DNA of 27,355 bases, taken from positions 1-27,355 of the IMG/VR virus record IMGVR_UViG_3300046542_000011, one strand, 5' to 3'. This DNA is from a virus. A model generated the notes under the pieces. It saw nothing but the letters and a program-made list of their open reading frames with translations. It did not search any database and had not been told where the DNA came from. Position numbers and translations under genes: made by a program. Shown in pieces: positions 5,947 to 27,355 of the stretch (the first letter of the stretch is position 1; every line of letters starts with the position of its first letter).

Positions 5947-6072
5947 CTATTTGGACCTTCTCGATTTCGAGAGGGCTATGGCCACTGCTTGTTTCTGAGG
6001 TCTACCCTCTTTCTTAAGCAGTCTGATGTTAGCTGAAACAGCTTTCTGTGACTTACCTTTCTTGAGTGGCAT
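5947..6072 (-). CDS. 41-aa very basic protein ending the late operon
   Basis: Reads [20 protein letters not shown], continues through [14 protein letters not shown] and ends SRRSK. The protein is about one third Lys/Arg. Small proteins with a start like [10 protein letters not shown] and a [12 protein letters not shown] block are common in tailed phages, usually with no assigned role. The ATG overlaps the stop of the 889-aa virion gene (TAATG), and the stop TAG (5947-5949) lies two bases past the stem of the shared terminator. Basic charge suggests nucleic-acid or capsid DNA contact, but this is only inference. The pattern [10 protein letters not shown] is helical and could also bind protein. 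Confidence 0.75.
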
Positions 6073-8741
6073 TATTCACCTGCAAATGCAGTTAGTACTG
6101 CAGAAGGAGTTGTTCCAGAACGTCTCTGTCCTGCGTATGCACCTTGACCAGATGTAGTCGGGAGTGACGCCCATTCTTTAGCTAGGTTGTTGATGAACTG
6201 ATCACCACTGATCTCACCAGCACGATACCTAGACAATCCCCTACGTTCGAGTAGAGCCTGTGCTAGTCTATCCTGTAGTTCAGGTGTGAAGATTTCATCA
6301 CCACTTAGGCCAAGTTCTTTCTTGAGACCACGAAGAGTAGTTCTTATGATTTGGTATCGACCTAGTGCAGAAGAGTTCCACTTGTTGTTAGGATGAGCAA
6401 GCATGTCAGTCTGGAGAGCATCTACGTCATCAAGACTCATGCTAGTGATATCAACATCACCTCCAGTGAAGGCCCCATATCCAAGTGTTTCATTATAACC
6501 CCTGCCTCGGTCAGTCCCCTCAGTTTTACCCAAGAGATTCAGAATTGCAGCTTGACCACCACTGGCACTAGCTTTCTCCAATTCAGGAGCAGTAAAGTTA
6601 ATTGGGGTGAAGGTTACGTTATTATCTCGTTCATCTTTTGGCGTGGTGTTAGATGTCTCACCGATTTCCTTGAAGTTTGTGTCGGACTCAGCAGCATCCA
6701 TCTGACGACCACGTTCTGCAGCGATCTTGCCCAACTTGGAGTCAGGTGCAATCAGACCAGTTCCCTTACGGGGGTCAGGTGCAATGATGTTATCCAAAGA
6801 CTCGTTGAGCCAACCGAAGAAGCCCTGCTTAGGGTCCTTCTGGAGATCAGCAGCAACAGACTGCATGAGAGTCTTGATACCCTCGGTTTCATCTGCACCA
6901 TTAGCTTCGATAATCGGAGCCATGACTGCAAGACCTTGGTTGAAAGCATCCTTAGCCTTGATCGCAGCTTGTAGCTGAAACTTCTGACCAGACATAACAC
7001 CACTGCCAGTTTCGAAGAATCCAAGGTTATTGATCGCCTCTTCGTTGGCTTCAAGGATTACTCGGTTCCTCTGGGGATCATAGTGAGCCCTGAGGTACTT
7101 GGTGTAATCAATGTTCTCCGTCAAGTCAGCAGCAGCCCTACGGAACTCAGGAATCTGCTGGAACTTATCTACTGCAGCAGCAGTGTAAGTAGCCAGAGCC
7201 TTAGGATCATTGAGTGCAGTGATCTCCTTGGTGATCTTCGGATTGAACATCTTGTTGTAGAGCCGGAACCTCTGAGAGGTGCCCTTGGCCCCAACAGAGT
7301 CATCCACGACATCCCAAGTAGCATCGAGGTTATCCCCATACACATTCTGTACAGTGTTAGCCTTGATATCAGGAGTGGCCTCAGGAGCAGTAAGTGTCCC
7401 TACAGCCCCGTCAAGGACCGCTGAGAGCAACTGTTCCTTTTCCTTACCAGTCTTACCCTGAGCAGCGAGAACGTTGCCAGTGACCTGGTTCATGGTCGTC
7501 TTGCCACTTGTAAGTGACTTAGTGATATCCTTCCCAAGAGTCTTGTTGATGAAGGACATACCTCCACCAGCGTTCTCGATAACCATGTCGATGATCTTAT
7601 CTGCACCAGCCTCAGAGATATTCCGTACAGCAGAAGCTACACGAAGGTCGGGGAAGGTTTTGTAGAGATCGGCAGTAGCCTGATCAGTCATCGCCTTGTT
7701 ACGAGCAGCAATCTGAGAGGCAGCATTGATGTTACCAGAGTTCACTAGTTCGATCATAGAGTCGATCTGGGAAAGACCATTCTTGACTTCATCATTAAGT
7801 TCAGAAGAAGAGAAGTTAGAGCCCCAGTCAGATGTCTGGTAGCGCTGTCTCATATCCTGCTCTGCCTTTACACGAATCTGTGCAAGGAAGCCATTAATCT
7901 GTTCCTGTTCTTCAGGTACGATCTTACCATCTGCAAGAGCAGTCTGGAGGAGGTTCTGTACATTCGGAGAGTCAACCCCTGCAGCCTCAGAGCCACCAAC
8001 GATGTAGCCAGAACCAATGGTTCCGAAGAGTTGACCAAGCTGTTGCTTTGCCACTACCTTGTCATTGCTCCGAAGCTTAGTGGTGTCTTCAGAGAGGCGA
8101 ATACGTCCCTGATACTGAGAGACGTTAGCCTTAACTTGGTTACGCATCTCCTGATCAGAGTATTTGTCAGGGTTACTATAGAAGTCAGGATACAGGATAC
8201 CAAGGACCTCAGAGTTTTCTTTAGTCTGAGCCCAGCTATCGAACTTACCCTGTTGGGAAGCCATAGCCTGTTGCTGGTTCTCAATGTTCTGCATAAGAGC
8301 ATTACGGTAGGCATTAGCAGGGTTGACACCAGTTACAGACTGAACAATAGAGTCCACCTGTTTCTCATAGCCAGGATACCGAGAACGAAGCCCCTTTAGC
8401 GTAGAGGCTAGACGCTGGTAGTAGTATTCATTGGTCACATTGCCCTGCATGTGGGCAGCAGCCAGTTTCTGTAGACCTTCCTGAGACTGAGTGAGTTCAG
8501 AGGGCACGGTATCTACATCAAGATTCATTTCTTGATTAATAGACTCGTAGCCATACCTAGCGTCGTTCTCAATCTTACCTTGGACATAGGTATCCGCAGT
8601 CTGCACACCATTACTGATGGCTTCCCCCAACCCAGAGAAGAGGGCTTCAAACGCTTGATTAGGTCCTGTACCTCTTGAGACCCCTAGATTACTAGGAGCC
8701 TGTTGTTCATTAGTCTGGGTTGAAGGATTGAACTCAGCCAC
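6072..8741 (-). CDS. internal virion protein with C-terminal lysozyme/transglycosylase domain
   Basis: An 889-aa ejection protein, probably stored in the head and delivered into the periplasm to open peptidoglycan during DNA entry. Residues 1-700 are Gln/Asn/Ala-rich and mainly helical. The last 159 residues form a muramidase-like domain: [20 protein letters not shown] with likely catalytic Glu741 (codon 6519-6521), [34 protein letters not shown] and LAKEWASLP. These resemble phage lambda-type lytic transglycosylases and COG4678 muramidases. In T7 the transglycosylase is at the N-terminus of gp16, so its place at the C-terminus of a different core protein is notable. The start is GTG, overlapping the TAG of the 1546-aa gene (TAGTG), with GGAG 10 bases upstream. 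Confidence 0.88.
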
Positions 8742-18112: not shown

Positions 18113-18652
18113 CTATTTTCCTCGTAGGAGCCTCAGGAGAAGCTTTAGCCACCACGGGGTATCATCTACCACCACAGATGTCGGGACGCTCTCTACGGGC
18201 TTCTGTGGCTGTTTATTCCACGCATCTAGTGCCCTCTTAGACCAAGTGTACCTTGCGTCCATGTGGGGGATTCCCGGACGCAGGAAAGTCTCAGAGAATA
18301 CCTTAGTCTTCTGCTCTAGGGTAGTTGCTTGCTTTAGTTTAGAAAGAACCCTGCCTTCAGGACCCCTTAGTTCTACAAAGAGGAATTTATAGTTGGCATC
18401 CATGTCAGTGGGACTGAGGTTATTTCTTTTCCAGTATGCTTCAGCCTCTCGTCTCCGAGGACCAGTCCACTGCATAATACCCCAACCACCTTTGGAACCA
18501 GCTACAAGAGGTTTCAATTCCTGTAGCTGCTTAAACCCACCACTTTCATGTCCTGCATTACCTATAATGGAAACAGCGGACAGGAGGTCAAGATCGAAGT
18601 CCTTCATTAGGCGATCTATAAAGATCACAGACCACTTATTAAAGAATTCCAT
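18113..18652 (-). CDS. endolysin (Phage_lysozyme2-type)
   Basis: 179-aa cell-wall hydrolase. SIIGNAGHESGGFKQLQELK followed by GGWGIMQWTGPRRREAEAYW matches the signature of phage tail-lysozyme type enzymes; Glu36 in GHES is the likely catalytic residue. There is no signal peptide, so holin-dependent release is expected. The last residues (PWWLKLLLRLLRGK) form a cationic hydrophobic helix separated from the domain by a Pro/Val-rich linker, unusual for a small endolysin and perhaps membrane-active. The start ATG at 18652 has AAGGAG at 18658-18663. A GTG/ATG start further up at 18721 would overlap the tail spike end and has no good site. Confidence 0.86.
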   Translation of the reverse strand: MEFFNKWSVIFIDRLMKDFDLDLLSAVSIIGNAGHESGGFKQLQELKPLVAGSKGGWGIMQWTGPRRREAEAYWKRNNLSPTDMDANYKFLFVELRGPEGRVLSKLKQATTLEQKTKVFSETFLRPGIPHMDARYTWSKRALDAWNKQPQKPVESVPTSVVVDDTPWWLKLLLRLLRGK

Positions 18653-18653
18653 T

Positions 18654-20390
18654 CTATCTCCTTGAGATGTCTGCTGTCCATGCAAATGCAATAGTGTTCC
18701 CACTAACATTTGTATTGACATTGATTTTGAATGTTGTAGATGTCAGTGTGTCCACCCAATAACGAGCTACACCACCCAAGTTAATATCAAATCTAGGCAC
18801 GATCATGATATCACCATTAACTGGAGTCTCAGCTAGGCCATGAGTTACAGTTGTACTTGAAGTACCGATGGCAACATCTGAGGTCCCAGAATTATGTGTT
18901 CTGTATCCACCACATCCGTCAACGATTGTCCGAGCACCAACTCTAGTAATACCATTGGGATCTACATCAACACCGATAATACGATTAAAGTCGGTTGTCC
19001 CAGAAACTACCTCTTCAAGAACACCCTTACTTGCACGGTCCGGTACATAAATATCCCCGCCTATCAACCCGACACGACTTGAGTCAGTTAGTCGAATTGC
19101 AGGATGGCTCGCGTTAGCGCGATCAGTAGTGTCGATATTAACCCCGGTAATATTCATACGGGAGCATCTGGTCAGCCGGATACCAGACTTGTTAATATTC
19201 GCAATCTTAAGGCCAGTAATTTCAATCAACGAAGCATCATAGATCGCCAGTCCGTCCCCCGCAGAGGATGTCCCAAGCCAGAGATTATTAATCCCAATCT
19301 GCTTGACATCACTAGAGGCTCCCTTTTCCATACGCCACAGATCATTGGTGACTGTATCCGAAAGGATATTAGAGAAGTGACCCCACTGGACTTCTCCAGT
19401 AGCAGCATCAGGATCACCGAGATGCCATCCATGATTACCTGCGCCAGCTAGCTCACAATTTACAAACTTTGACCCATTGAAGTACTGCAGACGGTATCCA
19501 GTGTCAATGGTGTTTTGTACCATGACATTTGATGCGATGACTGCGTTGTTGGGATTAGTAACATCGTGCCCAGTAGCGTGGAGACCACGAAAACTCTGGT
19601 CATCCCCCCCACCATCCACACTAAGTTTGTCCATCCACACTTGCCATACATCGTGGTAGTTTAGTGCATCGTAGCAGGCATGAAACCTGAGACCTTCCAG
19701 AACAAACCTATTAGACCACTCCATTTGAACACCGTGGGCATTGGTGAGGGCGTTCCCCCCACCCCTAATCGTCATGAATTTAATGCCACCACGATTTCTA
19801 CCACTTGCAAGAGTGCCAATGTTAGTAAAGACTGGGTAATCCCCCAACGCCGTTACTTCTGTAGCACCATCCCCATCCCCATAGATGAAGACATTATCTG
19901 GGACTGCAATAGAGTCTCCAACCGCAAACACAGTATCCGTTCGATAAGAATTTAGATGAAATCTGCCCCCACCCCAAGAGGCGATGTCAGTGAGTACATT
20001 CATAATCTCTGGTTGATCGTCTGTAGCACCATCACCAGCCAATTTAATAGAGGTGGCATCGAGATTCACCCTCAGACGGTTTCGCATAGACACATACGGA
20101 GCTACAACACCTGTTACTCCAGGGTTGTAAGATGCGTCTGCTAATTCAGTAGTAGTCTCGATTGGTATTCCTGCAATGGTAAGTGACTCGACATCGACAT
20201 CCCCCGCATTTAGGAGGTCATTATTATTCATGTCGATATCGGCCTCCATTTGATTAGGAGTCGTACCGTCACGAGAAAGAGTATTTTCTAAAGCAGTCTC
20301 GATAAGAGTGCTATTTGCGTTAATTGTCGTCGCGGCAGAGGTCGGGTTCCCCATGAGGCTGGAGACATCTGCAAGGGTAAGTTTAGCCAT
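18654..20390 (-). CDS. tail spike / tail fibre with probable beta-helix domain
   Basis: 578-aa receptor-binding protein. N-terminal adaptor region MAKLTLADVSSLMGNPTSAA with many Asn/Thr. From about residue 120 a pectate-lyase-like right-handed beta-helix is suggested by GDGATDDQPEIMNVL, GGGRFHLNSY, repeated short strands (RFVLEGLRF, VQWGHFSNI, IEITGLKIANI, RMNITGVNI, RVGLIGGDI) and Gly/Asn turns. The C-terminus is a separate beta domain ending in AFAWTADISRR. GDGATDDQP is the classic N-cap of phage spike helices. Whether it degrades polysaccharide is not shown. The ATG at 20390 (TAATG overlap, GGAGAATTTA upstream) is preferred to an in-frame upstream start at 20429. Confidence 0.88.
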   Translation of the reverse strand: MAKLTLADVSSLMGNPTSAATTINANSTLIETALENTLSRDGTTPNQMEADIDMNNNDLLNAGDVDVESLTIAGIPIETTTELADASYNPGVTGVVAPYVSMRNRLRVNLDATSIKLAGDGATDDQPEIMNVLTDIASWGGGRFHLNSYRTDTVFAVGDSIAVPDNVFIYGDGDGATEVTALGDYPVFTNIGTLASGRNRGGIKFMTIRGGGNALTNAHGVQMEWSNRFVLEGLRFHACYDALNYHDVWQVWMDKLSVDGGGDDQSFRGLHATGHDVTNPNNAVIASNVMVQNTIDTGYRLQYFNGSKFVNCELAGAGNHGWHLGDPDAATGEVQWGHFSNILSDTVTNDLWRMEKGASSDVKQIGINNLWLGTSSAGDGLAIYDASLIEITGLKIANINKSGIRLTRCSRMNITGVNIDTTDRANASHPAIRLTDSSRVGLIGGDIYVPDRASKGVLEEVVSGTTDFNRIIGVDVDPNGITRVGARTIVDGCGGYRTHNSGTSDVAIGTSSTTVTHGLAETPVNGDIMIVPRFDINLGGVARYWVDTLTSTTFKINVNTNVSGNTIAFAWTADISRR

Positions 20391-26344: not shown

Positions 26345-26439
26345 TTCTTTTTGCCACTCTTCTTGGGCTTCTTGTCCTTGACCTTGGTCTTGGTTTCTTT
26401 AGTAGCTTTGTTATAACCGAATGGATTATCTTTAGGCAT
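26341..26439 (-). CDS. 32-aa Lys-rich micro-protein after terminase
   Basis: Reads MPKDNPFGYNKATKETKTKV and ends DKKPKKSGKKK, nearly half Lys. ATG at 26439 overlaps the terminase stop (TAATG) and is preceded by GGAGGAATTACTTA, a strong ribosome site. Its TGA overlaps the ATG of the 84-aa gene. The ribosome site plus overlaps on both sides support a real gene in spite of its size. May be a nucleic-acid binding peptide. Confidence 0.65.
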   Translation of the reverse strand: MPKDNPFGYNKATKETKTKVKDKKPKKSGKKK

Positions 26440-27355
26440 TAAGTAATTCCTCCGAAGCGGGAGTGTTGAACATTTTGTTTAGGCTTCTGCATGAACATAC
26501 CACCCGAGGGAGGGACACAAATCTCAAAGCAGGAAGCGAGGCAGTCTTTAACGTCATCATGTGCTGGGTTCTGGAGAACAAGTTCTTCTTCAAGAATCTC
26601 GCAGTTACCACCCTTGTAGTGCCAGACCTGTCTATTCTCGTATCGAGGATTGAGTGCAGCGAACATACGCTCCTCTTTCGTTCCGATGTGACGAGTAGGT
26701 CTGTGTTCATCAATACTGAGGGCTAGGCCCCACTGACGAATGTAGTTGTCTTTAAGTTCCTTGACAATGATTGACTGTGCTGCAGTTACCTCGGCCCTGA
26801 TCTTACGGAAGTACCACTGGTTATGCAGAGAAAGAATCTTGTCGAAGTAATCCTTGATCTTATCAGTCTTGAACCGCTCGATATCTAGGACGTAGTAGTT
26901 ATTGAAGGAGTCAACTCCCACGACCACGATTGCAGTGAAGTCAGCCTTCTTACTCAGAGAGTACGCAAAGTCAACGGCAGCGAATACGTTAAGCCTGCGT
27001 GAGTTATAGTAGACTCCGCCATTCTGTCTTTGGACAAGTCCCTTGTTGAAGTACTGGAAAAGGTCTCGTTGTATCGGGGCTGACTCAGCATCATTGGGAT
27101 CATTGTAGTACTGTGCTCTAAATTGAGTTTTATCAAGGTACTTGGCCCTTTTCTGTGCTAGAATCCTCTGGTCAAAGCCATACCACTTACCATCTGAACG
27201 CTGTTGACGTGGCCAGAGATATTGCCCGGAGCCATCACCGATATCTTCTACCTGACGTTAAAATACTTCATACAGTTTAAATTCAGAGGTTTGATCACCA
27301 TTCGCGTCGTATTCCTCAACGCTCATGGACAGCATGTCATTGTATAGGTCTGCAG
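26439..27355 (-). CDS. terminase large subunit, C-terminal part, interrupted by an in-frame TAA
   Basis: DNA-packaging motor and nuclease; the 5' part lies beyond the right edge. Downstream of 27257 the frame encodes 272 residues, including YLWPRQQRSDGKWYGFDQ, TQFRAQYYNDP, the nuclease motif FAAVDFAYSLSKKADFTAI with the first catalytic Asp, IRAEVTAAQ, and AHDDVKDCLA with later Asp residues. Upstream, ADLYNDMLSMSVEEYDANGD to KLYEVF continues in exactly the same frame to the window edge. The two are separated only by TAA at 27258-27260, where a Glu codon (GAA) would fit the family pattern. No in-frame ATG, GTG or TTG occurs between the stop and GTG 26927, which lies past the nuclease Asp. Either a sequencing error, a true nonsense mutation, or readthrough. 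The stop overlaps the next ATG by one base. Confidence 0.85.
27258..27260 (-). other. in-frame TAA within terminase
   Basis: Single stop triplet separating otherwise continuous terminase coding sequence (KLYEVF before it, RQVEDIG after it). One base change from GAA would explain it. Listed separately so that the interruption is not lost. Confidence 0.85.

Follow-up and report, generated by a model that had tools for sequence, protein, structure and literature searches.

The large-terminase gene at the right end of the window (the whole stretch of DNA analyzed, 27,355 bases) is interrupted by a single in-frame TAA that is probably a base error at the contig edge. This reading is favored because the stop lies near the contig end and is an isolated single substitution at a column otherwise occupied by Glu or Gln. 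One wrong base, from a sequencing error or from low-coverage consensus calling near an end of the linear metagenomic contig, would explain it. The phage itself would then encode an ordinary, uninterrupted T7 gp19-like large terminase, with an ATPase and an RNase H-like nuclease, and the true residue at the column would be Glu or Gln.

The interrupted large-terminase frame

The minus-strand translation from 27353 to 26439 reads ADLYNDMLSMSVEEYDANGDQTSEFKLYEVF, stop, RQVEDIGDGSGQYLWPRQ...GGIT, stop. The TAA at codon 32 is the single internal stop of this terminase fragment, and the terminal TAA is at 26441-26439 (Table 1). The contig does not reach the 5' part of the gene, the first 210 or so codons, and the Walker A and B motifs of the ATPase fall in these absent N-terminal ~210 residues. 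The initial annotation had described a frame continuous on both sides of the stop, with flanking residues (LYEVF and RQVED) that look adjoining within one family, and both points are borne out by the alignments. When read through the stop, the fragment aligns to residues 209 to 513 of the 514-amino-acid terminases of Lentibacter phage ICBM1 and Celeribacter phage P12053L, and the residues on the two sides of the stop fit without a gap.

Over its C-terminal part, the fragment matches the T7-like large terminases of the T7 gp19 type, with PHROG 38 (terminase large subunit) covering the part after the stop (E value of 1.4e-40, residues 10 to 260). The AAVDFAYS motif, whose Asp we take to be the catalytic one, and the family columns are conserved as in an RNase H-like nuclease, and the Pfam terminase RNase H-like models give weak matches below their cut-offs. 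One unbroken reading frame is what the assembled sequence lacks, and this interruption is judged to be an error and not a family difference.

Table 1. Coordinates of the interrupted terminase frame and of the codons discussed in the text
Feature	Position in window	Strand	Basis
Large terminase, 3' part, ~305 codons	26439..27353	-	Translation; PHROG 38; alignment to ICBM1/P12053L terminases
In-frame TAA at Glu/Gln column	27258..27260	-	Translation; column in 80 homologues; most likely a base error
Conserved Asp codon (AAVDFAYS), RNase H-like nuclease domain	26970..26972	-	Codon 128; weak Pfam matches
First ATG/GTG/TTG past the stop (GTG)	26925..26927	-	Codon 143, beyond the nuclease Asp

The closest known systems are found among the Siovirus terminases of ICBM1 and P12053L (Zobellviridae, Cobavirinae), which share about 59 to 62% identity with the part present in the window (59% for ICBM1). 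These terminases likewise lie upstream of the portal gene and have an equal C-terminal length but form one open frame of 514 codons without an internal stop. The resemblance extends to T7 gp19, or DNA maturase B (PDB 4bij), which is matched by the ATPase part of a close homologue (E value of 5e-7), although its sequence is distant and uninterrupted.

The stop column in relatives

The column occupied by the stop was surveyed in 80 homologues retrieved from IMG/VR, with identities of 56 to 76%. It holds Glu in 69 and Gln in the remaining 11, encoded by GAA (42), GAG (27), CAA (7), and CAG (4), and all four of the closest homologues (70 to 76% identity) have GAA. TAA is one substitution away from these codons. 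The surrounding sequence is otherwise that of the family, with the strongly conserved columns matched at 6 of 6 positions upstream of the stop and at 97 of 98 downstream. Neither an interruption nor a gene boundary occurs at this site in the 80 homologues, in six homologues from genome contigs, or in ICBM3 and P12053L.

A motif scan of IMG/VR (F, stop, R or S, x, V, E, x, x, G, D, G) returned no contig with the stop other than the window, although records closely similar to the window may be missing from such a scan. Cases of this kind were within its reach: the pattern recovers the window itself, and the version with Glu hits 53 of 170 loci. The alignment with other large terminases and the search for the same TAA in close relatives, both proposed with the initial annotation, thus gave Glu or Gln in every homologue and no second example of the stop. 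No near-identical contig covering the same site was found in IMG/VR by a search that may likewise omit records very near the window.

Position of the stop relative to the contig ends

The IMG/VR record is a linear virus fragment of exactly 27,355 bases, and its gene order is colinear with approximately 3.4 to 32.3 kb of the 47.5-kb relative IMGVR_UViG_3300048929_000021. Judged from sequence comparison, the stretch is an interior piece of a genome resembling this relative, and both of its ends are assembly breaks, the left one truncating the DNA polymerase and the right one the terminase. The TAA is 95 bases from the right contig end, a distance that a single short read would probably cover. 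The chance of a randomly placed lesion falling this close to either end is approximately 0.7% (2 x 98 / 27355).

The left end shows no second edge lesion; the DNA polymerase frame there is open, follows that of relatives from the very start with no stop, and can be aligned to 80 contigs. Within the terminal 95 bases at the right end, no other anomaly was seen except one residue, at a variable column, that is unseen among the homologues. No other broken gene was found in the window by comparison with ICBM1 and P12053L, a comparison in which some small or divergent genes lack a homologue. Literature searches on contig-end errors and on Zobellviridae terminases returned nothing bearing on the question.

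Start codons, gene boundaries, and the SIO1 precedent

A normal gene boundary, with ATPase and nuclease made as two proteins, is given next to no probability. In the window, no in-frame ATG, GTG, or TTG occurs between codon 33 and codon 142, the interval from the stop to GTG 26927 offering only ATC 27242, ATT 27164, ATA 27074, CTG 26957, and ATC 26930. The codon check agrees with the initial annotation, which had stated that no restart is available before the first nuclease Asp. That annotation had also left room for a normal boundary at this site; none was seen, the homologue alignment showing one continuous gene. What speaks for two proteins is that PHROG 20726 (199 positions) covers the nuclease half only and that Roseobacter phage SIO1 is annotated with separate gp1 and gp2. 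This SIO1 split, however, comes from a frame break that does not appear in the second SIO1 record. With no usable start before the Asp and with continuous homologues, a split terminase with a separate nuclease protein is largely refuted.

SIO1, a cultured member of the Zobellviridae (Cobavirinae), is a direct parallel to the window in that both of its GenBank sequences show a broken terminase. In AF189021, the terminase frame breaks, leading to the gp1/gp2 annotation, while the terminase of FJ867910 is interrupted by two in-frame stops and contains long stretches of N. The lesions are mutually exclusive, neither record's set being present in the other wherever both are readable. They differ from the window in lying elsewhere in the gene, in not being equal between records, and in coming from a viable isolate. 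The likeliest explanation for them is sequence error, culture variants being possible, and the gp1/gp2 split in the annotation is doubtful. The nuclease half of the terminase (window 26442-26991, minus strand) is matched by PHROG 20726 with an E value of 1.9e-54. This PHROG, labelled as unknown function, is probably a family of terminase fragments and may have descended from such split annotations.

Mutation, readthrough, or base error

The window uses all three stop codons among its 31 listed genes (TAA in 18, TGA in 10, and TAG in 3), a list drawn from open frames in which some small frames are uncertain. Because 18 of these 31 genes end in TAA, this codon is not recoded, and a change of genetic code is ruled out by stop usage in the window. 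The pattern of a recoded phage, a stop lying inside several genes and avoided as a terminator, is absent. Recoding in crAss-like phages has been reported for TAG or TGA, and many of these phages encode suppressor tRNAs (PMC7886860). In some of them, in-frame stops in TerL mark the recoding (PMC7886860); the likeness to the window ends there, as their stops (TAG or TGA) fall mainly in late genes and often come with suppressor tRNAs. The window has one such TAA, with no other found elsewhere in it, and no tRNA was found.

This precedent gives some ground for a genuine stop that is overcome by readthrough or by a suppressor tRNA, with full-length terminase still made, and so does the intact, conserved frame downstream; a suppressor tRNA could also be encoded in the part of the genome outside the record, or one could be supplied by the host. 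Such decoding is nevertheless very unlikely. With TAA ending so many listed genes, suppression would lengthen many proteins, and the stop is present at this column in no relative examined. The search for a suppressor tRNA suggested initially found no tRNA gene in the window, nor any in three relatives with complete or near-complete genomes (the 47.5-kb relative, ICBM1, and P12053L), and an Rfam search of the window gave no match. The narrower version, a real TAA with site-specific readthrough or a host suppressor, in which the stop would limit the amount of terminase, is extremely improbable.

A true nonsense mutation is possible but considerably less likely than a base error. It would mean a genome, or one strain in the sampled population, whose defective terminase retains the ATPase motifs but not the nuclease domain, so that packaging would be impossible unless co-infecting intact relatives complement it. 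The stop is present in the assembled sequence, one substitution from the codons of relatives, and other contigs of the family also contain broken structural genes, such as the portal gene of IMGVR_UViG_3300044472_000001, although those may be errors themselves. Two further points count against a base error: a genuine nonsense mutation of recent origin would be indistinguishable from it in the consensus, and the rest of the terminal 95 bases is otherwise near-normal. Against a mutation, the stop is the sole lesion found in 27 kb and falls within 98 bases of the contig end. The terminase is essential for packaging, and a genome with a defective one should therefore not reach consensus-level abundance and assemble as the consensus. 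From these observations, we infer a wrong base and not a true mutation. Of the initial proposals (suppression, genome defect, or miscalled base), the evidence points to the last, a miscall or an assembly-edge error, given that the stop, the sole lesion seen, is only 95 bases from the end of a linear record. Suppression lacks support, TAA being the commonest stop in the window and no tRNA having been found there or in the three relatives searched.

Other observations in the window and in related contigs

In IMGVR_UViG_3300044472_000001, the portal gene (about 2292-2672) is broken into two frames and contains a TGA, which may reflect an error or a true lesion. The 4.1-kb contig IMGVR_UViG_3300038492_000294 has portal matches on both strands, which suggests an inverted assembly chimaera. 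Within the window, an 889-amino-acid virion protein is encoded at 6072-8741 on the minus strand, and its C-terminal part resembles, by eye, a candidate lysozyme-type domain; there seems to be a candidate second lysozyme-like gene at 18113-18721. A tail-fibre search gave weak matches with no bearing on the terminase stop.

Implications

The terminase stop in this phage carries little biological weight. Where single in-frame stops lie near the ends of metagenomic viral contigs, the reads should be checked before recoding, readthrough, or defective phages are claimed. The two SIO1 records illustrate this pitfall in a cultured phage, again in the terminase gene.
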